In this document: one piece after another, positions 32,239 through 57,636 of the stretch
Position numbering within the stretch: the first letter of the stretch is position 1
Layout: every line of letters begins with the position of its first letter
IMG/VR virus record: IMGVR_UViG_3300022744_000020
Coordinates: 62,001-126,000 of that record
From: a virus
Reading direction: 5' to 3' (one strand)
Length of the DNA stretch: 64,000 nucleotides
Made by a program: the position numbers and the translations under genes
The notes under the pieces: model-generated
Seen by the model: only the letters and a program-made list of their open reading frames with translations
Databases searched by the model: none
Told to the model about the DNA's origin: nothing

Positions 32239-32311
32239 AAAACTACAAGATTTACCCATTGAGTGTAGTAAGGGACTTCTTTGATCTTCGTACTGTTTCA
32301 CCACCTCCATC

Positions 32312-33454: not shown

Positions 33455-33759
33455 TTTACGTCCCTGACTGCAATAGTCTTGTTCAAGCCCTACGGATTCA
33501 CCTACCTGGTGAATCCGTAGACACTTTGATGTCAATCGTGGAGTGCCTACTGATCGAATGGTTTGTCACCGACATGGACCTGGTGATGGAGTCCCAACAA
33601 CACCTGGAATCTTGGTTCAACCCAGGGATCTTATTTATTCTCAGACACCATCTTCAAGAGCAGACTTTGGCAGCCTTGGATGAAAAAACTAAACAGATAA
33701 GAATACCGTGGTACCAAATACAACCACACCAAAACACATTCGCCATCCAGTTCAATTGA
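33451..33759 (+). CDS. Hypothetical protein, 102 aa (cassette gene 4)
   Basis: It overlaps the previous gene by ATGA. The segment SIVECLLIEWFVTDMDLVME matches in spacing and residues the DVVECCMIEAYTLTPNEIED of the next gene, hinting at ancient duplication. It is helical in the centre; the function is unknown. Confidence 0.62.
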   Translation: MIYVPDCNSLVQALRIHLPGESVDTLMSIVECLLIEWFVTDMDLVMESQQHLESWFNPGILFILRHHLQEQTLAALDEKTKQIRIPWYQIQPHQNTFAIQFN

Positions 33760-33771
33760 AGACGCAACTAA

Positions 33772-34194
33772 ATGTCTAGATTCTTACTCTCAATCGGAGA
33801 CTATCGACATTACTCGTTGATGTTGGAGCAGCAATTTCCCTGGGTTATGGATCGGCTAATAGGAAAGCTAGATGTGGTCGAGTGCTGTATGATTGAAGCA
33901 TACACACTCACGCCGAACGAAATTGAAGACTCGACGATTTGGGACTGTGTTGTTAACATTGTTGACACGGTGTCTAACTTTGCCGGAAATGGTAGGTGCG
34001 ATGAGTTGGATTTGTGCTCATTCAGCGGCACGAGTTGGTCTTTTTCTGTGTGTCTATACAACATCGTCTGTCACTATTTAGGGATCTTCCGTTCGGCGCT
34101 ACCAAACATGGCACATTCCGGGGGTTGCGTTGTCGATCATCACTTAACCCACATCGAGGTAGGTCAGCGTGAAAGCTCAACTCGTCCTTATTAG
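33772..34194 (+). CDS. Hypothetical Cys-rich protein, 140 aa (cassette gene 5)
   Basis: The ribosome site is weak. The product has about eight Cys spread through the sequence and hydrophobic alpha segments (VVECCMIEAYTL; SVCLYNIVCHYLGIF). Its last 26 bases overlap the next gene. It may be a diverged relative of its cassette neighbours. The function is unknown. Confidence 0.58.
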   Translation: MSRFLLSIGDYRHYSLMLEQQFPWVMDRLIGKLDVVECCMIEAYTLTPNEIEDSTIWDCVVNIVDTVSNFAGNGRCDELDLCSFSGTSWSFSVCLYNIVCHYLGIFRSALPNMAHSGGCVVDHHLTHIEVGQRESSTRPY

Positions 34195-34555
34195 TTTGAG
34201 AGGATTGGATAAATTCAAGCGACAGAGTCCGGATTGGAAATTCTGGATACAGCATCTCCTGGACTGGCTCTGGGAGGATCCTACGCTAACGCATCTCGAC
34301 CTGATAGACGCATTCGTTTCCAATACCACTGACTTCGGGTTTGAATCCACCACCTACCAAGAAATCAGCGCGTACTACCGTCATTGCTTGAAAGACATAG
34401 TTGATGAATTAAAGGATCGCATGGCCCAGGAGATAGACTCCGCCGTCCTCATGACTCATCCGTTCGCCAAACACACTCAGTTGGTGCTCAGTGAAATTGA
34501 GTTAAGCAACGCCATTGGTGTAAGAATTCATGCCTACAAAGACGAACTTCCGTAG
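34169..34555 (+). CDS. Hypothetical protein, 128 aa (cassette gene 6)
   Basis: GTG 34169 follows GAGGTAGG inside the previous gene. The protein is helical with an aromatic cluster (PDWKFWIQHLLDWLWEDPT) and a charged C-terminal half. It overlaps the next gene by 26 bases. The function is unknown. Confidence 0.62.
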   Translation: MKAQLVLISLRGLDKFKRQSPDWKFWIQHLLDWLWEDPTLTHLDLIDAFVSNTTDFGFESTTYQEISAYYRHCLKDIVDELKDRMAQEIDSAVLMTHPFAKHTQLVLSEIELSNAIGVRIHAYKDELP

Positions 34556-34973
34556 TCTTCCGACCCTTATCTTCACGAAGCCGCCAATCCAGGCTCTGGT
34601 TAAAGGTTTCTTAGACCCCTTGGGTTACGATTACGATGAAAAAGGATTCGAGGAGATGTGCTCAGAGATGATGTCCATCCTCTTCCATTCCGATGATTCA
34701 AAACTGGTTGATTTTGAGATTGCTGGATATTTCAGACTGGTATGGGCGCAGGTCTTGCCAGAGATGTCCTTGGAAGATACCCAGACTGCGCTGAGATACT
34801 TCCGCCGTCAGATTTTAGTAGAGTTTCAATCGACTCGGGAACTCATTAAGGCATACCTCAAGGGTCGTGAAATAACCACCTTGGTGTCCTTGTACCCGAC
34901 CGACCACCGAATTCGTCATTTTTATGTTATTGAGAAAGAAGCCTTCCATGCACACGCAAAAGAACCCGGCTAA
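34530..34973 (+). CDS. Hypothetical protein, 147 aa (cassette gene 7)
   Basis: The start lies inside the end of the previous gene. The product begins with a basic strand (MPTKTNFRSLPTLIFTK), continues with helices (GFEEMCSEMMSILFHSDDSK) and ends in a basic/His-rich tail. It overlaps the next gene by 26 bases. The function is unknown. Confidence 0.62.
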   Translation: MPTKTNFRSLPTLIFTKPPIQALVKGFLDPLGYDYDEKGFEEMCSEMMSILFHSDDSKLVDFEIAGYFRLVWAQVLPEMSLEDTQTALRYFRRQILVEFQSTRELIKAYLKGREITTLVSLYPTDHRIRHFYVIEKEAFHAHAKEPG

Positions 34974-35364
34974 GGCCCGGTACTCTGTGGATCTGTCGAG
35001 AGAACTAGGTCACTTCAGATCCGCTAAACGGGTTTGTTTAGAGCCCCCGGACCGGGTGAAAGAACTCACCGATTTGGCCGTCAATCAATCTTTAGAGGCC
35101 ATTGTGCTTGATCACAATGGTTTCTCAATACCTGCACTTTCTCTAATTCAGAAGTTTGATCCCTTTTGGGTGGAGTCCCATCCTGTCAGAGCTGCAAAGT
35201 TAAGAGACCTTAGCCTGACGTTCATTGTGTTGAAGTCGGACATTTTTGGTCAGCTTAAACTTTTGCGGATGAAAACAAATCAACCTTTCAAGCTCGGTAA
35301 GATCGCAGTGAAAAATCTTACTGAGAAAAACATCTTAACCTTCGAGGTGAAAGAAAATGAGTAG
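34948..35364 (+). CDS. Hypothetical basic protein, 138 aa (cassette gene 8)
   Basis: ATG 34948 follows GAGAAAGAAG (34932-34941); an in-frame ATG at 34924 is possible. The product is basic and alpha/beta, starting MHTQKNPAKARYSVDLSREL and ending FEVKENE. It overlaps the last cassette gene by 8 bases. The function is unknown. Confidence 0.62.
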   Translation: MHTQKNPAKARYSVDLSRELGHFRSAKRVCLEPPDRVKELTDLAVNQSLEAIVLDHNGFSIPALSLIQKFDPFWVESHPVRAAKLRDLSLTFIVLKSDIFGQLKLLRMKTNQPFKLGKIAVKNLTEKNILTFEVKENE

Positions 35365-35758
35365 TTTCGGCGCTAATTTGAAAGTAGGAAGCGTTTACGA
35401 CTTTCGCTTCCTGACCCCTAACCAGATGGGGTCCGGATATGACTCGGCCTTGGTGATCGGGATCATCGATCACCGAGAAGCTCAGCGCCTGGCTGACGTG
35501 GATGCCATCCATCGCAATCTTCGCGTAGGGAATCCGACACTCACCACGACCATCAACGGTCTGGAGTTTGTTCGCATTCTCACCAGCGCCAACGAAAAGC
35601 GGGTGTTCGCCAAGGACTGGCTGAAGACTGAACCCAAACTGGTACAGAAGAAGACCGTCCAGTTTGTGATCCCGAATGTGGAACACGCCGACATCACCGC
35701 GATCAAAGAAGCGCTCATCAGTTTGGGCTTTACCAGCTTCGAGTCGACGATTTTGTAA
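35357..35758 (+). CDS. Hypothetical protein, 133 aa (cassette gene 9)
   Basis: ATG 35357 follows CGAGGTGAAAG. The codon choice is more GC-rich than the preceding cassette genes. It is alpha/beta (VGSVYDFRFLTPNQMGSGYD; ALVIGIIDHREAQRLADVDA), with no family recognised. It ends at a region that folds as a long stem (35757-35889), so a structured RNA follows it. Confidence 0.66.
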   Translation: MSSFGANLKVGSVYDFRFLTPNQMGSGYDSALVIGIIDHREAQRLADVDAIHRNLRVGNPTLTTTINGLEFVRILTSANEKRVFAKDWLKTEPKLVQKKTVQFVIPNVEHADITAIKEALISLGFTSFESTIL

Positions 35759-35889
35759 TTATATGCGAAAAGCTTTATTTTTTGTCGAAAATTGAGTATG
35801 ATCTCAGTCAGAGGTTTCTCCCTTTCTTGGCCGACTGATTGAGCTTGGACCAAACCGGCAAAGAGTTTAGCGCTAATCGCATATGTAAT
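35757..35889 (+). ncRNA. Candidate structured RNA, about 130 nt
   Basis: The two ends pair: ATTATATGCG (35758-35767) with CGCATAT and TAAT (35878-35889), with one bulged G. Inside, TCAGTC (35804-35809) pairs with GACTGA (35833-35838), and AAAC/GTTT and AGC/GCT pairings are possible in the 3' part. A terminator follows directly at 35893. No open frame or promoter motif is evident, so it is probably cut or terminated from the cassette transcript. It could also be a 3' UTR element. Confidence 0.45.
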
Positions 35890-35892
35890 GGG

Positions 35893-35930
35893 GGCACGGG
35901 GCGAAAGCTCCGTGCCTCTTATTCTTTTTT
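35893..35930 (+). terminator. Rho-independent terminator
   Basis: The stem GGCACGGGGC / GCTCCGTGCC has a GAAA loop and is followed by TCTTATTCTTTTTTG. Confidence 0.88.
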
Positions 35931-35973
35931 GTGTCATTGCCTGATCGTCTGATAACCTCCAGCCAAACCACCC

Positions 35974-38190
35974 ATGAAAAACGTATTCTTCAAGTCAGCA
36001 AATCAGTACAAGCGAGATGTGAATCCGGTGGAGCACTGCCTTCAATCTCGGGCGGAAATGTTGAGCATTCAGACAGGAGATCCGGTAGAGAAGTGTTTGG
36101 AGTTTGTGAGAAGATCTCACTCAAAGACGGGGATTTACGGTAATCGCATCAAAGACCCGGTGGTCAATTATTTCCATCGTCCGAACGGGGAAGATCGGGA
36201 AAAGAAAACGACCACTCTGATGAACTACATCGGGGACTCTATTAAGCGTAAAGAGTTCATCGCCCCCACTCTGACGACGTACGTGAATCAGGAAGAAGAA
36301 CAAAGCGTCTTCTCTGACGACATTTTTAACAACAAGAAAAATCGAAGCAAAGCCAAAAAGAAAGAGTTTGACTTTCGAACGGCTGGTGACGCGATTAATC
36401 AGGCCATCCAATATTTGGCACAGACCGGCTTTAAGAGAAACAATAACGCACTGTCCGGTGCACGGCTGAGTCCGTCCACTCCTTTATTTAATCCGACCTG
36501 TCACTCGACACTAACGAGCATTTGTCGGATTACCAGCGGTTACGGTAACCTGAACAATGAGAAGTTCATTTCCGGTAATCGTCACTATTACCGGCTGGAC
36601 ATTGTGCTGAACAACATCGTCAGCATCGTGACTCATTCGGACTTGGAGTTAATTCAAAGGGTCATTGAACGGCACGGCCTGGAGTATCCCACTTTGGACC
36701 AGGTCTGCGATTTGATCAACCGCTCGCTTCGACTGTACATGATCGACCAGAAGGTCGAAGCCACTATCCGTGAATTCGTGAGTCATCTCACCCCACTTCA
36801 GCGGGCTGCTTTCACTTACGTCGGGGACCTCTACCACCTCCGAGTGGTCAACCCCGATTTCATGCGTAGGTTTTTGGATGAGATTACCATGCAGCTCGAA
36901 GGGACCCATCCGGATCCCATGACGACAGTAAAGTCGGCACCTGGAGAGTATTTGTTTTTTGCACATCAGATCTGCAACAACTATACACGTGGCATCGGCA
37001 TGAAGCATGAAAAGATTGCCGACGGCCCTGGCATTCATTCGCTGGCTTTGACGATTGAAAATATCGCACGTGTTTGCGAACACTACTCCGATTTGATCGA
37101 AGCGTTTTACATGACGAGCAATCTGCCGTCAACTGTGGCGGATCTTCCGCATTCGATGCGTCGGGTGGTCACGACCAGTGACACTGACTCTACGATTTTC
37201 ACGGTGATGGAATGGGTCGATTGGTATGCTGGCACGCACAAACGCTGTCAGAAAACCATCACCTGTACGGCTGCAATTGTTTTTCTGACGGCTTCTTCGA
37301 TTGTGCATATCCTGGCCACAATGTCGGCTAACCTGGGAGCCATTGAGAAGTACATCTTTGAAATCAAGATGAAGTCGGAGTTTGAATTCGATCCGTTCAT
37401 TCCTACGAATTTGGGCAAACATTACTTCGCTAACAAATGGTGCCAAGAAGGCCAAGTGTTTGCGCAAGCCGACCGGGAAGAGAAGGGGGTGTATCTAATC
37501 AACAGCGCTCTACCCGAAGAGTTGATGGCGAAAGCAAAAGCCATGCGCTGCAAGATCATGGACGCAATCAACAACGGGGAGAAAATCCGACTGATGGATT
37601 ATCTCAATGAAGTCGCTGAGGTAGAGAACAACATCGTGGCTTCAATCCAAAAAGGCGAGCCGACCTATTTGAGTGCTGGGACGGTTCGAGATCCAGCAAG
37701 TTACACCAAAGACAAGGAAAACTCTCCTTACCAGAACCACGTGTTTTGGAATTTTGTCTTTGGAGAGAAGTACGGAATTGTCCCAGAGCCGCCATACCAG
37801 ACGCTGAAGATTTCCCTGACGACAGACACTCGGTCCCGAATGATGGATTGGCTGAAGACCATGAAGGATCGAGGTATTGCGACTCGTTTGGTTGAGTGGA
37901 TGAAGCGAAAGGAAAAGACTGAGATTTCCACGATCTATTTGCCCAACATCTACTTGTCGTCCACTGGAGTGCCTGAAGAGCTCCTGGAGGTGATTGACTA
38001 CGAGAAGATGCTCGGACAGCTCTGTGGGCCTTTCTACCTGGCTCTAGAGACCATCGGCTACTACGGAAACGGTGAAAGAATCAAACGACTGGCTTTCAGT
38101 TCGTACAACTTGAAAGCACAGATTCCGAAGATTGATGAAATTGATCTAGAGATGGCTCAAGAGGCTTTCTCCGACCTGCAAGGAGAGTAG
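35974..38190 (+). CDS. Family B-type DNA polymerase, palm/C-terminal protein
   Basis: This 738-aa protein probably extends phage DNA. The palm motif C is visible as TTSDTDSTIFT at residues 400-410 (catalytic D403 and D405). About 60 residues earlier, QICNNYTRGIG (332-342) looks like a diverged motif B. Residues 165-205 (SPSTPLFNPTCHS... GYGN) form a well-kept region. No 3'-5' exonuclease or clear motif A is visible, so these may be on another gene, as split polymerases in phiKZ relatives suggest. ATG 35974 has no strong ribosome site. The function is inferred from motif C; confidence is moderate. Confidence 0.58.
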   Translation: MKNVFFKSANQYKRDVNPVEHCLQSRAEMLSIQTGDPVEKCLEFVRRSHSKTGIYGNRIKDPVVNYFHRPNGEDREKKTTTLMNYIGDSIKRKEFIAPTLTTYVNQEEEQSVFSDDIFNNKKNRSKAKKKEFDFRTAGDAINQAIQYLAQTGFKRNNNALSGARLSPSTPLFNPTCHSTLTSICRITSGYGNLNNEKFISGNRHYYRLDIVLNNIVSIVTHSDLELIQRVIERHGLEYPTLDQVCDLINRSLRLYMIDQKVEATIREFVSHLTPLQRAAFTYVGDLYHLRVVNPDFMRRFLDEITMQLEGTHPDPMTTVKSAPGEYLFFAHQICNNYTRGIGMKHEKIADGPGIHSLALTIENIARVCEHYSDLIEAFYMTSNLPSTVADLPHSMRRVVTTSDTDSTIFTVMEWVDWYAGTHKRCQKTITCTAAIVFLTASSIVHILATMSANLGAIEKYIFEIKMKSEFEFDPFIPTNLGKHYFANKWCQEGQVFAQADREEKGVYLINSALPEELMAKAKAMRCKIMDAINNGEKIRLMDYLNEVAEVENNIVASIQKGEPTYLSAGTVRDPASYTKDKENSPYQNHVFWNFVFGEKYGIVPEPPYQTLKISLTTDTRSRMMDWLKTMKDRGIATRLVEWMKRKEKTEISTIYLPNIYLSSTGVPEELLEVIDYEKMLGQLCGPFYLALETIGYYGNGERIKRLAFSSYNLKAQIPKIDEIDLEMAQEAFSDLQGE

Positions 38191-38243: not shown

Positions 38244-39341
38244 TCAGATACCACCCATTTCTTCAAGGGCATTGATATCGGTCAGGACCTCGCTCTGATA
38301 TGCGGGTCCGATGTTCTCTAAGATCATCGCTCTTGTTTCATAGAGCCTGAGGTTTCTCTCAAGGTCATTGAACAAATATTGGTTCTGAGACTTCGCGTCT
38401 TCACCAGCCATGTCCATTAACGTTCGCAGCACTCTTATCCGACTACTCAGAACCAACCAACTCACCTGTATATTGGTGGGGATCTTAGGAATCGTCAAAG
38501 CGTGATGCAGATTCTTGAGGCGCAAACCAGGCATTGCTGAAAGAAGATATGAGAATCGACCAGGAGTCTTTCTCAAGTTTTCTACGACTCTCTCAATTCC
38601 TTCCTTGTGGACTCGGTCGTGATTGGCCAGAGCGATCGGATGTCGAAAAGAACTGAGTTTGTCTACCTCAAGACCTCGACCATAGAAGCAGTTGCTGATC
38701 TGATTGAACAGGCTGATTTCTGCTTGACGTGGGAGCATGTTGGGAAGAACGTACCCACCCACAAACCTCGTCACGTCCTGAGTGCCGTCTTTGGTAATGC
38801 CTTCTTCTCTCAGCCAGGCACGGTACTGAACCGCCAGTTTGGGTACGTTGATCTTAATGACCGTGAGCCCATACTCGTTCGATTGTTTGTCACCCACTGG
38901 GATAGTGAGTTTGAAATCAGACCGAGGGTGAATGAGCGGTTCCACGCAAATGGCCTGTCTCCAATACCTATCAACCAGCACGGGATCAAACCACTCGTTA
39001 GTGGCCAGATAGAACTCGGGCATATTCTTCGAGTAAAACTTCCCAGGGTGTGGTTGCCCCTTAGAATACATCGAAGTCATCTTCATGAGGCTTGCTACTT
39101 CTAAGCTGATCTCCCGGATCTTGGAGGTGAAACCCTCCAGCGATTGGTTAGGACTAACATAGAGGTTCAGCAGCAACGCAACAATTGGGTGATCGGAGCG
39201 GCACGGTAGTCGAAGCTGTCTATAGTACCGAACGATCGCTTCGATGTTGGCACCAACGGACATTTGCACCGTTGGCCAGATCGGTGGAGTTAGCGACGCT
39301 ATCGAGACGTTCTCGATTTGTCGAAAAAATCTCATGGACAT
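38244..39341 (-). CDS. Hypothetical protein, 365 aa
   Basis: ATG 39341 follows AGGA (39350-39353); a GTG at 39389 would extend the frame across a 16-bp direct repeat and is less likely. The product (MSMRFFRQIENVSIASL...) is alpha/beta with no recognised motif. It is a lone minus-strand gene between the polymerase and the ChmA candidate. The function is unknown. Confidence 0.7.
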   Translation of the reverse strand: MSMRFFRQIENVSIASLTPPIWPTVQMSVGANIEAIVRYYRQLRLPCRSDHPIVALLLNLYVSPNQSLEGFTSKIREISLEVASLMKMTSMYSKGQPHPGKFYSKNMPEFYLATNEWFDPVLVDRYWRQAICVEPLIHPRSDFKLTIPVGDKQSNEYGLTVIKINVPKLAVQYRAWLREEGITKDGTQDVTRFVGGYVLPNMLPRQAEISLFNQISNCFYGRGLEVDKLSSFRHPIALANHDRVHKEGIERVVENLRKTPGRFSYLLSAMPGLRLKNLHHALTIPKIPTNIQVSWLVLSSRIRVLRTLMDMAGEDAKSQNQYLFNDLERNLRLYETRAMILENIGPAYQSEVLTDINALEEMGGI

Positions 39342-39367
39342 GTCAAAGGGTCCTATTGGGGGGAGTT

Positions 39368-39489
39368 GGCTGGCTGAAAGGCTAACCACGGTAGCAAAGA
39401 AAGTCTGGAGTCAGACAATAAAAAATTATGACTTTATTACCTATAGTCTGGTAGAAATCGAAAGGTTTTTACAGGCTGGCTGAAAGGCT
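39368..39489. repeat. 16-bp direct repeat pair in intergenic region
   Basis: GGCTGGCTGAAAGGCT occurs at 39368-39383 and again at 39474-39489, in the 291-bp gap between the divergent genes at 39341 and 39633. The pair brackets an AT-rich segment. The rest of the gap holds only the promoter-like site at 39545. Confidence 0.7.
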
Positions 39490-39554: not shown

Positions 39555-39632
39555 CTCTTGAGTAAAGCCGCCTAATTCCAGCCGGTGTTCTGCTCTTGGT
39601 TCTTCCCAACGCGACAAGAAAGGTCGTTCTCA

Positions 39633-41576
39633 ATGGCTATCAATTCCCCTTCGTTCGCCGGAATCCCTGGTGTCACCGATACCGCGATCGACATGTCGGC
39701 CCCGACCCAAACGGGTGCGGCAAATCCCTTCCCGTCCAGCACGAGCGCTGGCGGCTTTCGAGCCCGCGGCGGCCTGTCCAGCCTGGCTTCGATGGGTCCC
39801 TCGATCTTCCGCAACAGCGGCGACGACGTCACCAATGCGTTCGTCACGCACATGCGTGAAGCGGTCAAGACCACCGACCGTGCTGGTTGGCAGACCCGCG
39901 TGATCCCGATCACGCGTGCTGATCAACCCGACATCGCCTGGAGCGGCATCGCCATCGCAGTGCGCGCCGGCGAACAACCGGACGTGGCCGTGTTCGTGCT
40001 GATCATCGGTGGCAGCGAAGCCGGCCCGGCACCGCGGAGCATTCCGTTCCAAGGTCAGACCTGGCAGATCAAGTACACGCCGGGAGACGCCTGGGATGCG
40101 TCGTACGTCCAAGCCGTCAGCCAACACCTGCAGCGCACGCTGAGTGCAGCCTTCGGCGGCGTGCCGCTGAACGATCCGATCCTGGTCGGCGCGATGGCGG
40201 TTCCGCAGGAAGTTTCGACGGCGGACGTGGACCGGATCAACCAGATCTTGAGCAGCGCGCAGTACGCGGCCGCCCACGCACTGGTCCCGACCGAGCTGGA
40301 AATCGAACCCGGCGATCGCCTGACGTTCGCTCCGCGGTACCGTTGCCCCGAGCTGACCAACGTGGTTGGCATGCCTGTGCTGGCTCCGATCTGTGTGGAC
40401 ACGTCCACCGGCAGCGGTCGTCAGTCCCAGGACCAGACGACGATCAACCGTCAGACGGGCAACCGTCGTCTGGGTGGTGCGGGCGCCTACCTGCAAGCCA
40501 CCTACGTCGGTCGCATCCAGCAGCCGGGCAACTACGGCTTCGCTCCCCAGGTCAACAACCGCGTGTTCGCACCGGAGTTCGTGATCACTGCGGTGGAAAG
40601 CATGGGCGCGGCAACGATGCCGCTGCTGCTGCTGAATGCCTGTGGTTTCCTGAGCGTGTCGTCGAACCTGGCGTGGATGGAAGGCTTCCGACCGGATCCG
40701 AACATCCCTCCGGGCAACGTCGACCATCGTGACGTGGGCATCCTGGGACGAGTGGCCGGCTACGAAGCCGCCAGCAATGGTGGTCGTGGTCAGCGCGCGC
40801 AACTCAAGGGCGCAGGCGTGCAAGATCAGCACATCGGCGAGTTCCTGGAACGCATCTTCCACGACCGTCCGATGATCTCGGTTCGCGTCGAAGAAGCTGG
40901 CCCGATGACCTGGGCACTGGCTCCACTGGTGGAAATCGCATGTGGTGGCCCGGCTGCGGCTGAAGCCAACTCCATGCTGATCCAGCAACTGAACCAGTTC
41001 TGCCGCGGCAAGCTGATGGCTCGTCTGGCCAACGCTGGCGACCAGAACATGCCGATCATGATCGAGAACTGCCCGCGCGTTCACCTGGGGTACTACGTGT
41101 CCTCGGACGGCGTGCGTCACGATCTGGCCAACATCGGTCTGATCGCACTGGCCAACGCCAGTGGCTCCGATGGCTCGCCGACGCTGGTCGAAGCTGACTG
41201 GGTGCGCACGTTCGATCCGCAGTCCGCTCCGGAAGAAGTGCGTCTGCAACAGCGCCTGTCGCTGATCGAGCTGGCCACCCACGGCGTCCAAGTCACGGGC
41301 TACGCACGGGTGCCGACGTTCAACGGTGCGTTCCTCAAGTGCTTCACTGAAGCACTGGTCGACGCCGGCCTGTCGATGCAAGTCGCGGGCAACCAGTCGC
41401 GCATGCGTGCCCAGGAAATGTACGCTCCGGGCTTCTACGCAGCCGCAGCCGTCGGTTCGGTGAACTTCTACACCGCAGCCGATGCCAATGGCCAACACTC
41501 GGGCGCCGGCCGTGCGTTCTTCAACACGGGCTTCAACACCGGGATCGGCCAAGGTCACCCGACCGGCTTCCACTGA
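39633..41576 (+). CDS. Candidate nuclear-shell protein chimallin (ChmA), 647 aa
   Basis: ChmA assembles as a lattice around replicating DNA in nucleus-forming phages. Evidence here is positional and general: length near the roughly 610-630 aa of known ChmA, extremely GC-rich codon use expected of a very abundant protein, flexible Ala/Pro/Gly/Ser-rich N-terminus (first 45 aa), a Gly-rich C-terminal tail (GFNTGIGQGHPTGFH), and the RNAP beta'-N gene directly downstream, the phiKZ gp54-gp55 order. AAAGG precedes ATG 39633; codons back to 39585 are not supported. No residue-level motif is recognised, so a structure search is needed; a capsid-type protein is the alternative. Confidence 0.5.
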   Translation: MAINSPSFAGIPGVTDTAIDMSAPTQTGAANPFPSSTSAGGFRARGGLSSLASMGPSIFRNSGDDVTNAFVTHMREAVKTTDRAGWQTRVIPITRADQPDIAWSGIAIAVRAGEQPDVAVFVLIIGGSEAGPAPRSIPFQGQTWQIKYTPGDAWDASYVQAVSQHLQRTLSAAFGGVPLNDPILVGAMAVPQEVSTADVDRINQILSSAQYAAAHALVPTELEIEPGDRLTFAPRYRCPELTNVVGMPVLAPICVDTSTGSGRQSQDQTTINRQTGNRRLGGAGAYLQATYVGRIQQPGNYGFAPQVNNRVFAPEFVITAVESMGAATMPLLLLNACGFLSVSSNLAWMEGFRPDPNIPPGNVDHRDVGILGRVAGYEAASNGGRGQRAQLKGAGVQDQHIGEFLERIFHDRPMISVRVEEAGPMTWALAPLVEIACGGPAAAEANSMLIQQLNQFCRGKLMARLANAGDQNMPIMIENCPRVHLGYYVSSDGVRHDLANIGLIALANASGSDGSPTLVEADWVRTFDPQSAPEEVRLQQRLSLIELATHGVQVTGYARVPTFNGAFLKCFTEALVDAGLSMQVAGNQSRMRAQEMYAPGFYAAAAVGSVNFYTAADANGQHSGAGRAFFNTGFNTGIGQGHPTGFH

Positions 41577-41617
41577 TTGACAACCGCCGGGCTTGCTCGG
41601 CGTAGTCAATGAAAACA

Positions 41618-41651
41618 TTTAAGGCGGCTGGGGAAACCCGGCTGCCTTAAA
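41618..41651 (+). terminator. Terminator hairpin
   Basis: TTTAAGGCGGC pairs with GCTGCCTTAAA (one mismatch) and is followed by TTTATTTTCTTTT. Confidence 0.8.
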
Positions 41652-41735
41652 TTTATTTTCTTTTACTATAATTCTACAAGTGAGGGACATTGACTGTAAT
41701 CGCTTCGCTTTTCCCCGTGTAGCTGGAGACCTTTA

Positions 41736-43244
41736 ATGGGAAGTTTCTTAAGACTGATAGACAATGCAGACGCCTTTGCGGAGGTTCCTAATCCGATCTT
41801 CGTCAACGACGTGGGGCGAGCAAGTCGTGAAAAGAGAGCTCAGCTTGAAAAAGCCCTGACGACTGAAGTGACCGGGGTCTTCACGGAGATGCCGCCGTCT
41901 TGCGATTGCGAGCAGACAACGGACTACTCCAATCTGGGACTGATCTGTACCAACTGCAACACCCCGGTTATTCGCAGCGCAGATCGAGACCTGAGGTCAA
42001 TGGTGTGGATCCGTCGTCCTGGAGGCGTCTCCAAGCTGATGAACCCGATGTTCTTGAACATGCTCCTCAAGCTGTTCAAGAAGAAGAACTTCAACTACAT
42101 CTACTACTTGCTGGACTCATCGTACCGTCCAAACTGCAAGACTCCCAACGATGTGGATGAGTTGGCCGCCAAAGGAATCAAAAGAGGATACAACTACTTC
42201 GTCGACAATCTGGAGTTCGTGATCACTGCCTTGTTTGACATGAAGACCTTCCGGCAAAAAGGAAGGGATCGAAAGTCACTCATGCGACTGATCAAGATCA
42301 AGAGGGACAAGATCCTTCTTGAGCAGCTACCGCTGATCAACAAATCACTGTCTGTCGTTGAGAAAACAGAAAGCGACTCCTATGTGGATCCGACGGTCAT
42401 CATGATGATCGACGCGATTCGCACGATACAGGGGATCGACACGACGGAGAGAGTGCTCGGTAACCATGCCAAGCAGCAAAGAACAGCCAAGACGCTGATC
42501 ATGCTGACCGAAGCGTACGACGAAATGCGCTACGGCATCATCTTGACGAAGAAGGGGATTGTTCGCAAGAACCTCTGCGGTACAAGAACGGCTTTCTCCA
42601 TGCGGTTTGTGATCTCATCCATCACTTGGCCGCATGACTACGAGGGAATTGAAATCCCTTGGGCTGGTGCGCTGATGATGTTCTTCCTTCACTTGGTGTC
42701 GAAATTGGCCAAGAGGGGACTGTCAAACAACGAGTGCATCCGACGCATCGAGCTCGCTCGGTACAAATTTGACCAGGAACTCTATGATCTGCTGATTGAA
42801 ATCTGCGGTGAGTTTCCGGTGATTTGGGATGAAGACGACGACGAAGAAACCAAAGCCAAAATCGGCGGCCGTCCCTGGACAACGATCGGGCGCTTCCCGA
42901 CACTCAAGCGTGGCTCGATCCAAGCCATGCCGATCCTGAAGATCAAGAAGGACCCGTACGACCAAACCATCGGGATCTCACCCCTCTGCATCAAGGAGCC
43001 GAATGCCGACTTCGACGGCGACCAAGAAGTCGTGGTGCTTCAGCTTGATGAAGTGTCTATGCGCGCTATCCGTCCAATGCGTGCACACCTCACGCTTCCG
43101 AGCACCAATGGCCATCGACAACTGGGTCAGGCCATGTCTTTCACCAAGCCCGTCGTGGTGACGGTGAACAACTGGATCGAATGGGAAGATCTTGATGAAC
43201 CTCTCACCCAACAGCAGATCCATTACCTGGAAGGATTGAGTTGA
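41736..43244 (+). CDS. RNA polymerase beta' subunit, N-terminal part (phiKZ gp55 type)
   Basis: This 502-aa subunit carries the catalytic Mg-binding motif NADFDGD at residues 423-429 (Asp425, 427 and 429). Cys56, Cys58, Cys71 and Cys74 (CDC...CTNC) fit the beta' zinc ribbon. The fragment stops soon after the active site, with the rest of beta' encoded at 55570. In phiKZ the non-virion enzyme has this split, and gene order here points to that enzyme. TGGAG precedes ATG 41736. The next gene overlaps its stop. Confidence 0.88.
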   Translation: MGSFLRLIDNADAFAEVPNPIFVNDVGRASREKRAQLEKALTTEVTGVFTEMPPSCDCEQTTDYSNLGLICTNCNTPVIRSADRDLRSMVWIRRPGGVSKLMNPMFLNMLLKLFKKKNFNYIYYLLDSSYRPNCKTPNDVDELAAKGIKRGYNYFVDNLEFVITALFDMKTFRQKGRDRKSLMRLIKIKRDKILLEQLPLINKSLSVVEKTESDSYVDPTVIMMIDAIRTIQGIDTTERVLGNHAKQQRTAKTLIMLTEAYDEMRYGIILTKKGIVRKNLCGTRTAFSMRFVISSITWPHDYEGIEIPWAGALMMFFLHLVSKLAKRGLSNNECIRRIELARYKFDQELYDLLIEICGEFPVIWDEDDDEETKAKIGGRPWTTIGRFPTLKRGSIQAMPILKIKKDPYDQTIGISPLCIKEPNADFDGDQEVVVLQLDEVSMRAIRPMRAHLTLPSTNGHRQLGQAMSFTKPVVVTVNNWIEWEDLDEPLTQQQIHYLEGLS

Positions 43245-47257: not shown

Positions 47258-47311
47258 AAATAAACCACCACCAGCAATCCTGTGTCACACAACCCTGGAG
47301 AAATTCCAATC

Positions 47312-48046
47312 ATGGCGAATCCACCCAAAGCACTGACGCTGCTCAGCCAGCGCGAACTTTCCCAATCGGCAGCAAATCCCACGGTCAAAGGGAAGTTCGC
47401 CACGCTGCGCTGGAAGATCGAGCGAAACAATCCGGTACTGGAAGTGGCCACCAACGATCCGGCAAAGATGAACAAGGAAGGCAACTTTGGCAAGATCAAA
47501 GTCTCGCTGAATCTGTTCACGGCTGCGCTGATCTGCGAAACCCTGATCGTCGCGGCAAATGCGAAAGAGCCGTTCCGTCGGATCATTCAGTGCTTCAATC
47601 ACGAATGGATCAACAACCAACGCAACCAAGATCGCACGCACCTGCACGACATCATCATCAACCGAGACGATGGCGGCGTGGTGACGATGGCGGTCATCGC
47701 GAAGACCGGAAACTGGCCGACGATCAAATTCCCGATCGTTCTCCCCGACATGCGGTACCAGAAGTTCTGCAAGGCTGACGGCACTGCGGTGGACATCTCT
47801 GAGCTGACGCAGTCGTGCGCTCGAATCTACGGCAAGGTCATGCTGCCGGTGATCCAGCAACTGATGGTTCGTGACTATGAACCGCCGGCTCCTCCGGCAA
47901 ATCGCGGCGGTGGCGGAGGCTATGGCCAGCGACAGTCCTATGGGCAACGCGACCAAGGTGGTGGCGGATATGGTGGCGGTGGTGGACGAAGCCAAACAGC
48001 AATCTCCAGTGATGATGGAGATGGGGATGACGACATTCCGTACTGA
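47312..48046 (+). CDS. Single-stranded DNA-binding protein-like, 244 aa
   Basis: This protein likely coats single-stranded DNA at phage forks. The evidence is the C-terminus: a Gly-rich flexible linker (about residues 200-230, with GGGGGYGQRQ and GGGGYGGGGG) and an acidic tip DDGDGDDDIPY that closely matches the DDDIPF tip of bacterial SSB. The N-terminal 190 residues are alpha/beta and could be an OB fold, but I cannot confirm this. TGGAG precedes ATG 47312. The gene lies among SbcD-like and RNAP genes. Confidence 0.62.
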   Translation: MANPPKALTLLSQRELSQSAANPTVKGKFATLRWKIERNNPVLEVATNDPAKMNKEGNFGKIKVSLNLFTAALICETLIVAANAKEPFRRIIQCFNHEWINNQRNQDRTHLHDIIINRDDGGVVTMAVIAKTGNWPTIKFPIVLPDMRYQKFCKADGTAVDISELTQSCARIYGKVMLPVIQQLMVRDYEPPAPPANRGGGGGYGQRQSYGQRDQGGGGYGGGGGRSQTAISSDDGDGDDDIPY

Positions 48047-48167: not shown

Positions 48168-49712
48168 ATGGCAATGTTAGCAAGATTCGGCAACACTCAA
48201 GGAGCACGAGTATTTGCGATCGATCACGGCGACCGCGCCTGTGAGTTTGAAGGAGGTATCTACGAGAGACAAATCAAAGATGCCCCAGGGGCGGACAATC
48301 CGATTCGTCTTCTGAACGAATACTGGGAATATCTGGGACAGTACAGCCCGGAGAAGATCGAAAGGATCTTTGAAATATATCGGGTCATTCGAGGAATCTT
48401 CGACGACTACAACGATATCGATACGTTGCAGTATCGTTGTATTCCGCTGGTGTCTGAACTTCTGGACTTCCACGCTCCTGAAGACATGACTCGGTGGCTG
48501 ATGACGAAGACCAACATCGTCATCCCAGCCGATCTGCAAGTCGAGTATGTCCACAATGACGAGAAGCCCGGTAGTCGAGACAAGACGTATCTGAGAGGAG
48601 ACTATATCAAGCTGATCGGCATGTGCATGAGTCTGCGCTGCATGATTCCGGTGTGGTCACATTTCATCTGGCTGACCAAGGGAGATGCTGGAACGGATTG
48701 GAAGGAAGAAACGGCATTCCATCTGATCAGTCGGTCCTGCGTCTACAACTGCGAGGCCATGGTCAATCTTCGCAAGTACGCTCAAGAGATCGTCAACGCC
48801 GATCCAAACAACCTGGGACGAATCCTGAAGACCATTGGCACGGTGGACTATCCGGATTACATGGTGGCGTGCGTCTGCGTCAGTCGGTGCCCGGTGGTGA
48901 ACATTTCCGGACACAATGGCCGGAACATCATCAGTATCATCTATCCGTACCTGAATCCGAGAAACTCCACAATGAACACGATGGGCCGAAACGGCAACGT
49001 CGTGGCAAAGAGGCTCGATGGTTCCGGTGGTGATGACGGTGGTGACGGCAGTCAAATTGAATGCTACAAGGTCAGCCATCCCATCACGGTGGGCGAGCAG
49101 CGAATGGGTGACTATCGCTTCAGCGACAAGCCGGCGATCCTGACGACGCTCACTGGTCTGTTCGGAAATACCGACGACTATGAGTTGTTCATGGAGATCT
49201 GGGAGGCTGCAGAGCCTTTCCGGAAAAAGAGCATTCTGCCGTGTCAGAGAGTGCTCGCAAGTTACGCATTGACCAAATGGGTGAGTCCAACAGCCATCGG
49301 CACCATGGGCCGTGACTCGGTCATCAACGCGCTTTGCATTTCAGCAATCCATTACCTCAAGATGGATTTGCCGGACATCGCAGTGATCTGTACTGCCTGG
49401 AGCACGCAAAAAATGACCATCGGCTCGACGATGATTTCCGGTGCAGACGCACGACTGCGCCTGTCGGCTGAAACCCAACAAGCTCTGCTGGCAAACTTCC
49501 CCAACCTGAGATCAGCCCCTAATAAACGAGAGGTAAAGCCCAGAAATGTAGCAATCGAAGCGCTCCAACTTCTGGCCAGAGAACTGAGTCGTTGTGATTG
49601 GGCCATCACGTTACCCAATCGTCTTTTGCCCGAAAGACTCAAGACGGCGACTTACATGTCCGCTCCACCGGACATTTCCTCCAGACTGGCTAGAATTCTC
49701 CTGTCCCTGTAA
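48168..49712 (+). CDS. Candidate fifth subunit of the non-virion RNA polymerase (phiKZ gp68 type), 514 aa
   Basis: In phiKZ, gp68 (about 520 aa) belongs to the five-subunit non-virion RNAP and is needed for promoter-dependent initiation. Here the case rests on length and order: it lies between the beta'-N gene and the beta-C/beta'-C genes, as gp68 does. There are several Cys (CRCMIPV; CVCVSRCP) and an Asp/Gly-rich loop (GSGGDDGGDGSQ) at about residue 285. AGGAG precedes ATG 48168. No motif confirms the name, so this is inference. Confidence 0.42.
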   Translation: MAMLARFGNTQGARVFAIDHGDRACEFEGGIYERQIKDAPGADNPIRLLNEYWEYLGQYSPEKIERIFEIYRVIRGIFDDYNDIDTLQYRCIPLVSELLDFHAPEDMTRWLMTKTNIVIPADLQVEYVHNDEKPGSRDKTYLRGDYIKLIGMCMSLRCMIPVWSHFIWLTKGDAGTDWKEETAFHLISRSCVYNCEAMVNLRKYAQEIVNADPNNLGRILKTIGTVDYPDYMVACVCVSRCPVVNISGHNGRNIISIIYPYLNPRNSTMNTMGRNGNVVAKRLDGSGGDDGGDGSQIECYKVSHPITVGEQRMGDYRFSDKPAILTTLTGLFGNTDDYELFMEIWEAAEPFRKKSILPCQRVLASYALTKWVSPTAIGTMGRDSVINALCISAIHYLKMDLPDIAVICTAWSTQKMTIGSTMISGADARLRLSAETQQALLANFPNLRSAPNKREVKPRNVAIEALQLLARELSRCDWAITLPNRLLPERLKTATYMSAPPDISSRLARILLSL

Positions 49713-49732: not shown

Positions 49733-51163
49733 ATGTACCCGAACCAAATCAAAATCGCCCGCATCATTCTGGCCCCCACCGGTACCTACCAGGATCACTT
49801 TCAAACCCCGATCGCACTGGCGTTCACCCCTCAGTCCGACAGCGTGCTGTCGGAGATGATCGGTCGAGGCACTACGACGGCTAGTCAGGTAGCCCGGCAG
49901 CTCAGCGACAGCATCGGTCTGGCCCATCTGCCGCACGCCGGAGTGAGCATCACCAATTCCTGGGCTGAGCGGCGTATGCGCTTCATCATGGAGATTCATG
50001 TCGAAGGACAACATGCCGGCACGAGCATCGAATACGTGATGGGTTGGACCTCGCACGTTGGTGTCACACCCAACGGCTTCATCGACCAGAACATGACGAT
50101 GGTGGTCAACAGTACGACCATGCTGCGCAACAGCATCAGCTTCGGCATGGATGGTCGCCGGCAAAACAACATCTTCGTGGCGGACAACTCCCACCTGCTC
50201 AGCAGCGGGATGAACGGACACGTTCCGATCGGACAACGCACGATTCGTCCTCAAGACGCGCTGGTGCTGGGCAACAACTCCCAGTTCCTGGACATGGGTG
50301 AGAACGTCATCGACGCACGTGGCCAACTCACCAACACGCCAGTCAAGACCGATCGCAGCAACGAGTCCCCGGCGCAATGGTTCGCGCAGTTCATCAACTC
50401 GTGGATGCAAGCATGTCAGTCCAATCGAAACGAGATGGACTACAGCCGAGAGGAGATGGTCGGTGCGGCCGTGGCGCAAACCGACGACAACTGGGTCGCC
50501 AACGATCCGTTCCTCGTGACGATCCGAGACCATAGTCAAACGCGAGGTAGCAGTTTCACCTGGGGAGATCTCCTCACCATCGACCCGAGTATCGTGCAGC
50601 GCGTCAGCATCATTCCGTGCAGCACTGATGTGTATCAAACCCTCAGCACGCGTGGGGGTGCGGCCAACTGGGACGACGGAACGACGGAGAACTACATCGC
50701 TCGTGTGATCGCCAACACCATTCCTGGGTTGATGCTGGCGTGTAACTACCAGTCGGTGACGTTCCAGTTCAACCACGTCGGGGAGTTCCTCTACTCCAAC
50801 CTGTCGAGTCTGACCAATCAGGACATCAAGATCAATGCTGAAAAGCTGAAGAATCGAATCCTGAGTGAGATTCTCCCGCTGATCAGCCCACAGCAGTCGG
50901 TCGGGTTTGTGGCCGTCTGCGCACTGGATGCCTACGGTGAATCTATCGTGGACGTGACCCTGGGCAATGACACGATGCGTTACGTCAGCGCCGGCTTCGC
51001 TGATGCCCTGTTCTCGACTCTGATGAGCACCAATCAGGAACACATCGTGGGCCTGGCACTCGGACTCGGACGAACCATGGACCGCGTGGCCAGCTACTAC
51101 TGCCCCTCCATGGCCAACAATCAAGCCTCCATGGGTGCCTTCTCTCCTTCGATGGAGTATTGA
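49733..51163 (+). CDS. Candidate nuclear import factor Imp1/PicA (phiKZ gp69 type), 476 aa
   Basis: phiKZ gp69 (Imp1 or PicA) brings selected proteins into the phage nucleus. The assignment here is positional: this gene follows the gp68-like gene and precedes a gp70-position gene and the beta-C gene. The sequence is beta-rich, with Asn/Gly/Met-rich stretches and strongly GC-biased codons, so it is probably abundant. It has no visible catalytic motif. The ribosome site is weak. A virion protein is an alternative. Confidence 0.38.
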   Translation: MYPNQIKIARIILAPTGTYQDHFQTPIALAFTPQSDSVLSEMIGRGTTTASQVARQLSDSIGLAHLPHAGVSITNSWAERRMRFIMEIHVEGQHAGTSIEYVMGWTSHVGVTPNGFIDQNMTMVVNSTTMLRNSISFGMDGRRQNNIFVADNSHLLSSGMNGHVPIGQRTIRPQDALVLGNNSQFLDMGENVIDARGQLTNTPVKTDRSNESPAQWFAQFINSWMQACQSNRNEMDYSREEMVGAAVAQTDDNWVANDPFLVTIRDHSQTRGSSFTWGDLLTIDPSIVQRVSIIPCSTDVYQTLSTRGGAANWDDGTTENYIARVIANTIPGLMLACNYQSVTFQFNHVGEFLYSNLSSLTNQDIKINAEKLKNRILSEILPLISPQQSVGFVAVCALDAYGESIVDVTLGNDTMRYVSAGFADALFSTLMSTNQEHIVGLALGLGRTMDRVASYYCPSMANNQASMGAFSPSMEY

Positions 51164-53369: not shown

Positions 53370-53418
53370 AATTTGACCACCTCAAGCGGTGTGTCTACCA
53401 CGAAAGGTCTGCATAAAA

Positions 53419-55554
53419 ATGATCAACATCGACGAACTGAGACATTGGGATTACAGCGCCTACCCTGCGAGTGAAGTAACTCGTGAGATGTTGGGGGTGG
53501 CTGGTTATAACCCTTTTGTCAATTACGACTCGGCCTCCCGTCAGCAGATGGGGGTCGTTCAGCGCGCCCAGACGCCTCCGGCTTCTGGCAGTGAAGTTCC
53601 AAGACTCATCACGGGGTTGGAGAGAGAGTTTGGGAAGTACACCCACAGCATTCGCATGCCTGCCGACGGCGTGGTGGTGGCCGTCATTCAACGCTATCCG
53701 GTACGTGTGGGGGAAAACAGTTTCAACGATGAGTCCATCGTCATCTATGAAGCCCCTGGCGGCGTCCTTGACAGCTTCATGATCCAACCCTACTGGCAGC
53801 GTCACCAGTTGGGTTATCGGTTCAAGCCCAAGCCTGAAGCTCTGAGGAAGCTCCAAGTAGGAAATCAGATTCCCGAGGGTACGATCTTCTACGACACGCC
53901 GAACATCGCTGATGATGGGACGCTCATGATCGGCAACAATGCGTGTGTAGCACGCATGACCATGCCGGGGGTGGCGGAAGACGGTGTGGTGGTTTCTGAG
54001 GAGTACCTGCAACGATTAGGGCTGACCACACTGGAGACGCGAGTCATCAATGTGTCTGGTACGGAAATCGCCAAGAACATGTACGGAGATGACAAGAACT
54101 ACAAAGTCTTTCCTGACATTGGTGATCACATTCGAGACGATTCCATCTTGATGTGTGTCACGGAACTCGGCGACCCACTGCTGGCTCCGGCTCTGTCTTC
54201 TCCGAGAATGCTGCGCGATGTGGATTACCTGAACGACAAACCTACGACGGTGGGGGATTCGTCCGGTGTGGTTGTCTCCATTCGTGTGGATTACGACGGG
54301 TACTCGGATGTGGGTGCGGAGTACGACGCCCAACTGATGAAGTACAGTCGAGCTCTGAAGCAGTACATGCAGAAGATCATCGACGTGTATCTGGAGTTCA
54401 AGCGTCGGCGGGCTCAAGAAGGCCGTGAGCTGGAGTTGGGCAACCACTTCCACCAGATGGTGGTGGAGGCAATGGGGATCACGAACTACACGGGTTCGGG
54501 TCGTCCTGAGCGTCTGAGTCTTCAGCACAAAAAGAATCCGATCAAAGGGTTCCGCGTAGAGATTGTGGTGATGTATGAAAACATCACTCCCAACATTGGA
54601 TTCAAACTGACTGAACCGGGTGGTGGAAAAGGCGTCATCTGTCAGCGAGTTCCTGCCTCTCACATGCCCCGAGATCAGTGGGGTCGAGTGGCTGACATCT
54701 GCATGGATCCGAACAGCACGTTTGCTCGGATGATTCCCAGTCAGTGGTTGAGTGCCTACTATCAAGACAGCCTCTTCCACTGCTTCCGGAATCTCAAGTC
54801 TCGACTGGGCATCAATCGCGACTTGACGAAGAAGGAGGCGCTCGACTACCTCAACCAAAAACCACGGGAAGAGGTCTACTCAGCAGCTTGGTACCTGCTG
54901 AAGTTCTATGCCATCGTGGCCAGTGAAATGCTGGAGTGGTTCAAAGACGCCGACGACACCAAGATCTACCACCACTTGGCTCAAGTCCTTCAGTACGGGA
55001 TCTACCTGTACGTCCCGCCCGAGCATCGAATTCCTGGATTCGATGTGATCCGAGCCATCAAAAACTCGGAGTACCGCCCACCGAAAGGAGTGGTCACGTA
55101 CATTGGGAATTCCGGTAAGCTCCGAACAACCAAAGTTCCCATCCGACTATCGACCATGGAGGTCCAACTGCTGGAGAAGATCGCCAACGACTGGAGTGCT
55201 ATTCACACGCCGAGACTGCACTATACTGGGGTTCCAGCCCCAATGAATCCGGACGACAAGAGCCGAAGGGCTTTCCGGATTCAGGCAGTCAAGGGGTACG
55301 ACGAAGCCGCCACGGCTTTGCTGCGGGCTGCGCTTGGGGCACATTACGTGGCGCGTCTGATGAACTTCAACAACAATCCCGACACTCTGATCAGTGCGGC
55401 CGATCAGATTCTTGGCTCGCCAACACCAGGACATTTCCACGACCTCACACCTGGAGATCCACACCTGGGTGGGGCACGACCCATTCGTCTGGTGAATCAC
55501 ATGTTTGCATGCATGGGGTTCGAAGTAGATTGGGCGGCAGCGCCTGCTCGGTAA
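53419..55554 (+). CDS. RNA polymerase beta subunit, C-terminal part (phiKZ gp71-73 type)
   Basis: This 711-aa protein holds the C-terminal half of beta. The switch and active-site region PGGGKGVICQRVPASHMPRDQWG (residues 400-422) corresponds to the GxxGxKG...P...DMP segment of bacterial beta, and DICMDPNSTFARM after it corresponds to the NPLGVPSRMN region. ATG 53419 follows AAAGG. The beta'-C gene lies 15 bases on. The beta-N part (phiKZ gp123 type) is not in this window. No intron is seen, unlike phiKZ gp71-73. Confidence 0.88.
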   Translation: MINIDELRHWDYSAYPASEVTREMLGVAGYNPFVNYDSASRQQMGVVQRAQTPPASGSEVPRLITGLEREFGKYTHSIRMPADGVVVAVIQRYPVRVGENSFNDESIVIYEAPGGVLDSFMIQPYWQRHQLGYRFKPKPEALRKLQVGNQIPEGTIFYDTPNIADDGTLMIGNNACVARMTMPGVAEDGVVVSEEYLQRLGLTTLETRVINVSGTEIAKNMYGDDKNYKVFPDIGDHIRDDSILMCVTELGDPLLAPALSSPRMLRDVDYLNDKPTTVGDSSGVVVSIRVDYDGYSDVGAEYDAQLMKYSRALKQYMQKIIDVYLEFKRRRAQEGRELELGNHFHQMVVEAMGITNYTGSGRPERLSLQHKKNPIKGFRVEIVVMYENITPNIGFKLTEPGGGKGVICQRVPASHMPRDQWGRVADICMDPNSTFARMIPSQWLSAYYQDSLFHCFRNLKSRLGINRDLTKKEALDYLNQKPREEVYSAAWYLLKFYAIVASEMLEWFKDADDTKIYHHLAQVLQYGIYLYVPPEHRIPGFDVIRAIKNSEYRPPKGVVTYIGNSGKLRTTKVPIRLSTMEVQLLEKIANDWSAIHTPRLHYTGVPAPMNPDDKSRRAFRIQAVKGYDEAATALLRAALGAHYVARLMNFNNNPDTLISAADQILGSPTPGHFHDLTPGDPHLGGARPIRLVNHMFACMGFEVDWAAAPAR

Positions 55555-55569: not shown

Positions 55570-57636
55570 ATGATTAGAATATCCGCAAGAAAACTTCTGC
55601 TTCGCGATTCAGAAGAGCTGTGGGAAAACCTTCGGGGTCGCTTCATTCTGGTTTACGACGATCGTGAGGTCGTCACGCACTGGAAGGAAGCCATTCTGTC
55701 GTGGTATGGCCTTCGACAATTCAAGGAGTATCCGCACGTCCCTGTGGTGAGTAGTTGTCATTGCACGAACTTCATGCCGACCGGCGGCGTGAGCGTATCG
55801 ACGATGACTGAGATGTTGTGCCACGTGATCTTCCACATCTACGATCACAGCGCGCATCTGATTCGAGCGGATCATCCTGAGAACCGCTATAAGAATCGCT
55901 CGAAGTTCATGGAGCGGCTGTATCTGTTGATCTATCGGATCAACAACCGCGCCTACAACGAACTAATCATCAACCTGGAGGAGTTCGTCCACACCATCGA
56001 CCCTGAAGACATTCTGGAGATCTTGGATCACGAAGGAATTCGAGAAGTCAAGAGAACGGCAGAGCCGACGGTTGAAGGGACCAATGAGATCTACAAGGTC
56101 ATCACGGATGCGCTCAAGAACGATCCTGTGTTGAGGAAGAACGCCGCAGCCACGGCTGTTCGTCTGGGCACTGTCAATCTTCGTCAAGCGCTCCAGCTCT
56201 TCGGCCGACGAGGCTTCTTACCGGAAGTCAATGGACAGATCTTCCCCAATCCGATCAAGGGAGGGTTCTGCGATGGCTTCCGACTGCTGGTGGATGTCAT
56301 CATGGAATCCTCAGCTTGTGCTACGGCACTGATGGCTGCCGGGGACGATCTCAGAACCTCACAGTACGGCGCTCGGCGTCTGTCGATCAATGCAGGGGTG
56401 GTCGAGAAGATTGTCGATGAGGATTGTGGATCCGGGGCTTATCTGCTATGGAAGGTGCGCGGAGATGTCCGACATTCTCCGACGCAGGTGACACCTGGAG
56501 ATCTGAGGGGGTTGGCTGGCAAGTATTACCTGGACGATGACGGCCTCCTGAAGGTTGTTCGGAAAACAGACACGCACCTCATCGGGCGAACATTGAAGTT
56601 GCGTTCTCCCTTTACGGGTTGCGCCACGCGAGAACCTGGCGCCATCTGTGCGGTTTGCTTCGGTGAAGGCTACCTGCAAATCCCGGAGGGTACTGACATT
56701 GGTCCAACGGCCACCAACACCGTCACGGAAAAGTCAGCTCAGGAACTCCTCGGCAAGAAGCACGTCATTGCCTCCGAGGCCATGGAAGGTATTCGTCTCG
56801 ACCAGTTCACCAAGAAGTTCTTCACGGCCGAGTACAACGGATCGGTCTACTTCATCAATCCAAAGATCATCAAACCTGGATTGAAGATGCGGATCACGGC
56901 ACCACAAGTGTCCGGGCTTTCCGACATCCACTTGGAGAATGCGGTTCAGCGCATCAACATCTCGCGCGTCAGCTCCATCGTCAAGGTGGCGTTTGAACAC
57001 ATTGATCAGCACGGCGTCGTGACCATTGAAGACAACGTGAAGGTCAATGCGGCTAATCGCCAAGCCATGTTCACGCGAGAAGCTCTGGCCTATCTGCGTA
57101 ACGACCACTACGAGAACATGGGGACGTTCGTCGAGATCGATCTGTCGGAATGGGATCCCGCACTCCCGTTCTTCCAGTTGGACAACCAGCAAGACAGCGC
57201 AAGCGATCGACTCAAGAAGATCATGTCGATCATCGAGGGAACGGTTGCTAAGAGTGAAGAGCGGTCGACACAAGACCCTGCAGATCTCTTGGCTGAGTTG
57301 TTCGACCTCCTCAACGAGCGACTTGGTATTAGCCTGGCTTTGCTGGAAGTGATCATGCTTTCGGTCATGGCGACGAATCCGAGTCTTGGAAACTACACCA
57401 TCCCGAAGGAAGGAGACGAAAGGATTCCAACGGTTCTGGATACGGCGATTCAGAATCGCTCCGCTGCAGGCTATCTGTGCTACGAAGGCTTCAATAAGGG
57501 CGTGCAAAGCCCCGATAGGTTCCTGGTGGACCCGATAGGGAACCCCGCTTCGATCCCTGTCGATCACCCGCTGGACATGCTGATCAATCCACGGCAAGTG
57601 ATTGATCACATGCGCCAAACAGGTAAGTTGGTTTAA
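55570..57636 (+). CDS. RNA polymerase beta' subunit, C-terminal part (phiKZ gp74 type)
   Basis: This 688-aa protein completes beta'. Cys351, Cys360 and Cys363 (FTGCATREPGAICAVCFGEG) belong to the second beta' zinc cluster. The following TNTVTEKSAQELLGKKH matches the region of bacterial beta' that leads to the trigger loop (IAAQSIGEPGTQLTMRT, diverged). The far C-terminus carries TAIQNRSAAGYLCYEGFNKG. AAAAGGA precedes ATG 55570. It is cotranscribed with the beta-C gene. Confidence 0.85.
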   Translation: MIRISARKLLLRDSEELWENLRGRFILVYDDREVVTHWKEAILSWYGLRQFKEYPHVPVVSSCHCTNFMPTGGVSVSTMTEMLCHVIFHIYDHSAHLIRADHPENRYKNRSKFMERLYLLIYRINNRAYNELIINLEEFVHTIDPEDILEILDHEGIREVKRTAEPTVEGTNEIYKVITDALKNDPVLRKNAAATAVRLGTVNLRQALQLFGRRGFLPEVNGQIFPNPIKGGFCDGFRLLVDVIMESSACATALMAAGDDLRTSQYGARRLSINAGVVEKIVDEDCGSGAYLLWKVRGDVRHSPTQVTPGDLRGLAGKYYLDDDGLLKVVRKTDTHLIGRTLKLRSPFTGCATREPGAICAVCFGEGYLQIPEGTDIGPTATNTVTEKSAQELLGKKHVIASEAMEGIRLDQFTKKFFTAEYNGSVYFINPKIIKPGLKMRITAPQVSGLSDIHLENAVQRINISRVSSIVKVAFEHIDQHGVVTIEDNVKVNAANRQAMFTREALAYLRNDHYENMGTFVEIDLSEWDPALPFFQLDNQQDSASDRLKKIMSIIEGTVAKSEERSTQDPADLLAELFDLLNERLGISLALLEVIMLSVMATNPSLGNYTIPKEGDERIPTVLDTAIQNRSAAGYLCYEGFNKGVQSPDRFLVDPIGNPASIPVDHPLDMLINPRQVIDHMRQTGKLV

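Follow-up and report, generated by a model that had tools for sequence, protein, structure and literature searches.

The DNA analyzed here, a window of 64,000 nucleotides (positions 62,001 to 126,000 of the 270-kb IMG/VR virus record IMGVR_UViG_3300022744_000020), carries upstream of an RNA polymerase (RNAP) gene an open reading frame (ORF) that raises the question of whether it encodes chimallin (ChmA), the self-assembling subunit of the phage-nucleus shell in Chimalliviridae. An initial annotation had proposed this from the GC codon bias of the gene, the flexible ends of its product, and its position. We consider the gene to be almost certainly chmA, as the call was borne out by profile searches, a PDB sequence search, the predicted fold, synteny, and genome context. 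The features of the locus are collected in Table 1; positions are those of the window unless the record is named.

Table 1. Features of the chmA locus and of the genes around it (window coordinates).
Feature	Position	Strand	Basis
Phage DNA polymerase	35974..38190	+	PHROG_2927, E 1.5e-221; 41% identical to FLC9
Opposite-strand neighbor, phiKZ gp52 / PhiPA3 gp51 family, no assigned function	38244..39389	-	PHROG_3938
Probable ribosome-binding site of chmA (GACAAGAAAGG)	39614..39624	+	Sequence; 9 nt before ATG
chmA, chimallin-family nuclear shell protein, 647 aa	39633..41576	+	PHROG, Pfam, PDB, and fold matches
N-terminal tail, residues 1-57, predicted disordered	39633..39803	+	pLDDT <50 almost throughout
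Folded two-domain core, residues 58-587 (predicted)	39804..41393	+	pLDDT mostly >90; Foldseek
C-terminal tail, residues 588-647, predicted disordered, CTS1/CTS2-like, ends HPTGFH	41394..41573	+	pLDDT <50
Hairpin resembling a terminator, with a stem of 16 bp and a T-rich tail, in the interval from chmA to RNAP beta'-N	41617..41652	+	
Non-virion RNAP beta', N-terminal part (beta'-N)	41736..43244	+	PHROG_2987, E 4.6e-119
PhiPA3 gp61 ortholog, nucleus-associated protein	47282..48046	+	PHROG_3284; same position as PhiPA3 gp61
PhiPA3 gp62 / phiKZ gp68 ortholog, putative non-virion RNAP subunit	48168..49712	+	PHROG_3209, E 5.5e-76; same position
PicA ortholog (PhiPA3 gp63 / phiKZ gp69)	49733..51163	+	PHROG_3141, E 1.1e-58; same position as gp63
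Non-virion RNAP gene	53389..55554	+	PHROG_3295, E 2.7e-142
Non-virion RNAP gene	55570..57636	+	PHROG_3015, E 7.2e-138

The gene is intact, running without internal stops from the ATG to a TGA that ends at 41576. The mechanical ORF begins further upstream, at an in-frame GTG (39585); a purine-rich AAGAAAGG is found 9 nt 5' of the ATG, and a start there agrees with the "MAI..." N terminus of the FLC9 chimallin. Terminator-like sites overall were not more numerous than in shuffled sequences, although the stem of the one behind chmA is long, and in the LucasX record a terminator is annotated at the same place. This hairpin suggests that chmA may be transcribed separately from beta'-N. The phiKZ-type early promoter motif is TATATTAC. 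Such a promoter 5' of chmA could not be established, the candidate at 39433 (TTTATTAC) having one mismatch and the exact motif being found there in 13 of 84 relatives.

The product matched the PHROG_4795 "nuclear shell protein" profile over residues 61 to 637 (E 8.6e-55) and scored 48 bits against Pfam PF25677 Chimallin_Phikzvirus, for which the curated cut-off is 27. A phmmer search of the PDB matched the 201phi2-1 chimallin at E 2e-12, and up to E 10 it returned only chimallins (201phi2-1 and Goslar, 7sqt, among them) or PhiPA3 PhuN. With tblastn, 44 phage records were found, all below 60% identity and with Burkholderia phage FLC9 as the best (24.7% over 87% of the query, E 5e-29); the features annotated under these matches are nuclear shell proteins or hypothetical proteins. 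Judged by its sequence, the product is a member of the chimallin family, and its gene is the one chimallin homolog in the 270-kb record (record-wide statements are based on profile searches).

An AF2 model built on an alignment of 63 chimallins had a mean pLDDT of 81.7 and a pTM of 0.81; folding from the single sequence, without alignment, was uninformative (pLDDT 36). Compared with the PDB by Foldseek, the model gave nine significant matches, all of them chimallin chains (E 9e-31 to 2e-27, TM-scores by target length of 0.75 to 0.83), the best being 7sqs_A (E 9e-31, TM-score by target length 0.82), and the tenth match had an E value of 0.069. The predicted two-domain chimallin fold, an N-terminal alpha-beta domain followed by a GNAT-like C-terminal domain, matched 7sqs, 7sqv, 8igg, and 8fne over 543 to 606 columns. 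Among predicted viral proteins, 19 matched the model at E <= 1e-3, and the named ones came almost all from jumbo phages. This evidence is not independent of homology, because the alignment given to AF2 contains the chimallins of 201phi2-1 and PhiPA3. The initial annotation had proposed comparing the predicted fold with the chimallin structure and had held that a capsid or tail fold would speak against its reading; it is chimallins that the predicted fold matches instead.

The flexible termini that had been claimed also appear in the model, residues 588 to 647 and nearly all of residues 1 to 57 having a pLDDT below 50. The chain, ending in HPTGFH, shares the aromatic tip of the family: of 66 relatives, 65 carry an aromatic residue among the last 6 aa, where shuffled tails averaged 34. 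The conservation of this tip is consistent with a CTS2 anchor; enrichment of a [GA][FYW]N motif at the C terminus was only weak. The core and tail layout is almost identical to that of 201phi2-1 ChmA, which has its core at residues 62 to 581, an NTS at 48 to 61 that interlocks tetramers, CTS1 at 590 to 611, and CTS2 at 622 to 631 (PMC9365700). By analogy, residues 1 to 57 may be the region equivalent to this interlocking NTS.

The position upstream of beta'-N was also confirmed, the next gene matching PHROG_2987. LucasX, pEa54, and Goslar have the same order as the window (DNA polymerase, opposite-strand gp52-like gene, chmA, beta'-N), and in FLC9, 201phi2-1, and PhiPA3 chmA is likewise followed by beta'-N, with one small gene between them in 201phi2-1. 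An exact-peptide search of IMG/VR with the ChmA protein alone gave no match, and an alignment of seven phage chimallins held no stretch conserved enough to be used as a query; IMG/VR relatives were obtained through alignments of beta'-N and of three chimallin sequences. Among 80 IMG/VR loci collected through beta'-N only, chimallin not being used, 78 have a chimallin ORF upstream of it; locus L035 ends at the contig edge, and L058 was rejected as an exception to synteny since it carries a frame-broken chimallin. The order chmA to beta'-N is found in all 79 testable loci. In each of the 91 loci where both were found, the opposite-strand PHROG_3938 gene stands upstream of chmA; its product in the window also has a weaker match to the virion-protein family PHROG_14481. 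The gene is a strong candidate for functional study. The beta'-N frame of four relatives ends at or inside the NADFDGD motif (L004, 9811-11082; L005, 9675-11051; L006, 7762-9172; L058, 5001-6308 of the respective loci), and the Goslar annotation places an intron and an HNH endonuclease directly after its beta'-N gene. Together these suggest an intron insertion site that is shared. The copy in the window is uninterrupted.

Downstream of chmA, the genes of the window match PhiPA3 gp60 to gp64 family by family and in the same order. They include the gp61 ortholog, which we take to be ChmC, the ortholog of PhiPA3 gp62 and phiKZ gp68, with a role as a putative non-virion RNAP subunit (PMC10643120), and that of PicA, which acts in nuclear protein import (PMC11087766). 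Both multisubunit RNA polymerases are represented: the window contains genes of the non-virion enzyme, and a subunit of the virion enzyme is encoded elsewhere in the record (record positions 59189-60298). Its ortholog in 201phi2-1 is the C-terminal subunit of virion RNAP beta (39% identity, E 1.3e-85), a subunit assignment that we infer from the position in 201phi2-1 and a Pfam RNAP match. Together with chimallin, the Chimalliviridae core genes found comprise the DNA polymerase, the gp52-like gene, the RNAP genes, SbcCD, the gp60 to gp64 orthologs, tail sheath, TerL, and the major head protein. By chimallin and these core-gene blocks, the 270-kb record belongs to Chimalliviridae.

The nearest named relative is Burkholderia phage FLC9, with a ChmA identity of about 25 to 27% and TerL, DNA polymerase, and tail sheath 41 to 47% identical; polymerase and sheath, both at 41%, likewise have FLC9 as their nearest. 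FLC9 gp382 belongs to the chimallin family and is followed by the same gene order as in the window, and it is annotated just as a hypothetical protein. ChmA identity was 14 to 25% to 62 relatives and 14 to 27% to any known chimallin. Megablast of 24 kb against 50,697 phage records gave no DNA-level match, and a scan of GTDB genomes found no host-linked relative. The suggestion that the phage might be undescribed was supported within the collections searched, as a divergent one of the nucleus-forming type. In a quick tree, which is all that the phylogeny comprises, the window sequence sits on a long branch (2.16) inside a group of 29 rows that includes FLC9 (97% SH-aLRT), its finer placement being unsure.

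The strong GC codon bias put forward initially is real, with a GC3s of 0.77 against a median of 0.60 (rank 4 of the 37 window ORFs of at least 190 aa), but it is not specific to chimallin, being similar in tail sheath and tail tube. Synonymous codon usage correlates with that of these two genes at r=0.81, the highest value among non-reference genes, and because of this resemblance the bias cannot tell a shell from a virion protein; we infer from it high expression or abundance during infection rather than chimallin identity as such. The GC content of chmA exceeds that of the adjacent beta'-N in every one of 66 relatives, by a mean of 0.078 and in genomes of varied GC, and the same holds for GC3 in 60 of them, making the GC excess a usable but unspecific signature. 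A virion protein made in large amounts, whether of the capsid, the tail, or the head interior, could mimic a shell protein in codon bias and position, and the sheath- and tube-like usage is what such a protein would have. As codon bias, tails, and position alone are insufficient against it, the homology and fold tests make the separation: chimallins are the sole sequence and fold matches, and the major head protein (record positions 264064-266187), tail sheath, and putative tail tube are encoded by genes apart from chmA, so that we regard a virion protein as highly improbable. GC and GC3 as high as in the abundant structural genes are also found in two small ORFs, 7224-7820 and 9354-9812. The former has no PHROG match and a codon usage resembling that of tail sheath (r=0.79), and it may encode an unrecognized abundant protein.

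It might also be argued that the gene is a chimallin homolog with a lost or changed role, a paralog or degenerate copy, and that another protein builds the shell. The window protein deviates at seven of 20 near-invariant positions (R250, D252, L456, F461, R499, D502, and L504, in family letters), including position 250, where 62 of 62 other chimallins have R and the window protein L, and position 252, which is D in 97% of chimallins. The known chimallin motif PIRAD reads PVLAP in the window protein. These replacements are not disqualifying, because other long-branch chimallins deviate at seven to eight near-invariant positions, and they are possibly offset by compensating changes within the core. 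Unusually fast evolution of ChmA was rejected, as its excess divergence over beta'-N ranks 21 of 67, in line with the neighboring RNAP gene rather than an outlier. With the gene intact, at the canonical locus, with a strong expression signature, and with no second homolog in the record, a changed role has in our judgment only a very slight chance, and we retain the identification as the chimallin of this phage.

The tubulin PhuZ was searched for across the record with the profile phrog_4733, without a match at E <= 0.1; this profile found PhuZ in 201phi2-1, Goslar, FLC9, and LucasX at E < 1e-69. A Pfam tubulin search of the record found none. In FLC9 and LucasX, PhuZ closely follows the counterpart of the gene at 30842-31675 and lies shortly before the DNA polymerase; in the equivalent interval of the window (31676-35973), no ORF matches it. 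This interval contains a 259-aa ORF (32312-33091) with zero PHROG matches up to E 1. ChmB was undetected in the record, as it was in FLC9 and LucasX. Up to a third of chimalliviruses are without PhuZ (PMC12908238; PMC11724907), so its absence here falls within variation already known. Like the record, the Asesino clade and Vibrio phage Ariel have chimallin without detectable PhuZ (PMC11724907). The record probably comes from a chimallivirus that lacks PhuZ and stands outside the Asesino clade, extending the set of phages that apparently manage without this protein. A separate loss is suggested by the presence of PhuZ in the nearest relative, FLC9, with a phylogeny too poorly resolved for proof. 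That the phage stands for a deep, undescribed lineage of chimalliviruses, with PhuZ lost independently of the Asesino clade and PIRAD and R499/D502 rewritten, is a tentative and rather doubtful reading; if true, the rewritten residues would imply altered contacts within or between subunits.

By analogy, the window chimallin would assemble into a shell, form a nucleus, and protect the phage DNA. In 201phi2-1 and Goslar, the NTS holds the tetramers and the CTS links them as a flexible square lattice, which encloses the replicating DNA as a shell (PMC9365700). The core of about 530 residues would likewise form C4 tetramers joined via the N-terminal tail, with adjacent tetramers tied by the C-terminal one into a lattice of the same kind. 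This shell would enclose the replicating DNA and keep host nucleases out, with mRNA exiting and selected proteins entering via shell-associated factors, possibly the PicA ortholog among them.

Metagenomic chimallins have already been reported (PMC10299810), and proteins of this type are well described; what is new is a divergent sequence from an undescribed phage, by which a 270-kb record of environmental origin joins the nucleus-forming phages. As one of the more divergent chimallins of the family, it helps to identify the shell residues that cannot be dispensed with. Compared with the chimallins of 201phi2-1 (gp105), Goslar, and PhiPA3 (gp53/PhuN), it has 20 to 23% identity and a length of 647 aa against 602 to 631 aa, and it resembles them in its predicted fold, predicted disorder of the tails, aromatic tip, and adjacency to beta'-N.
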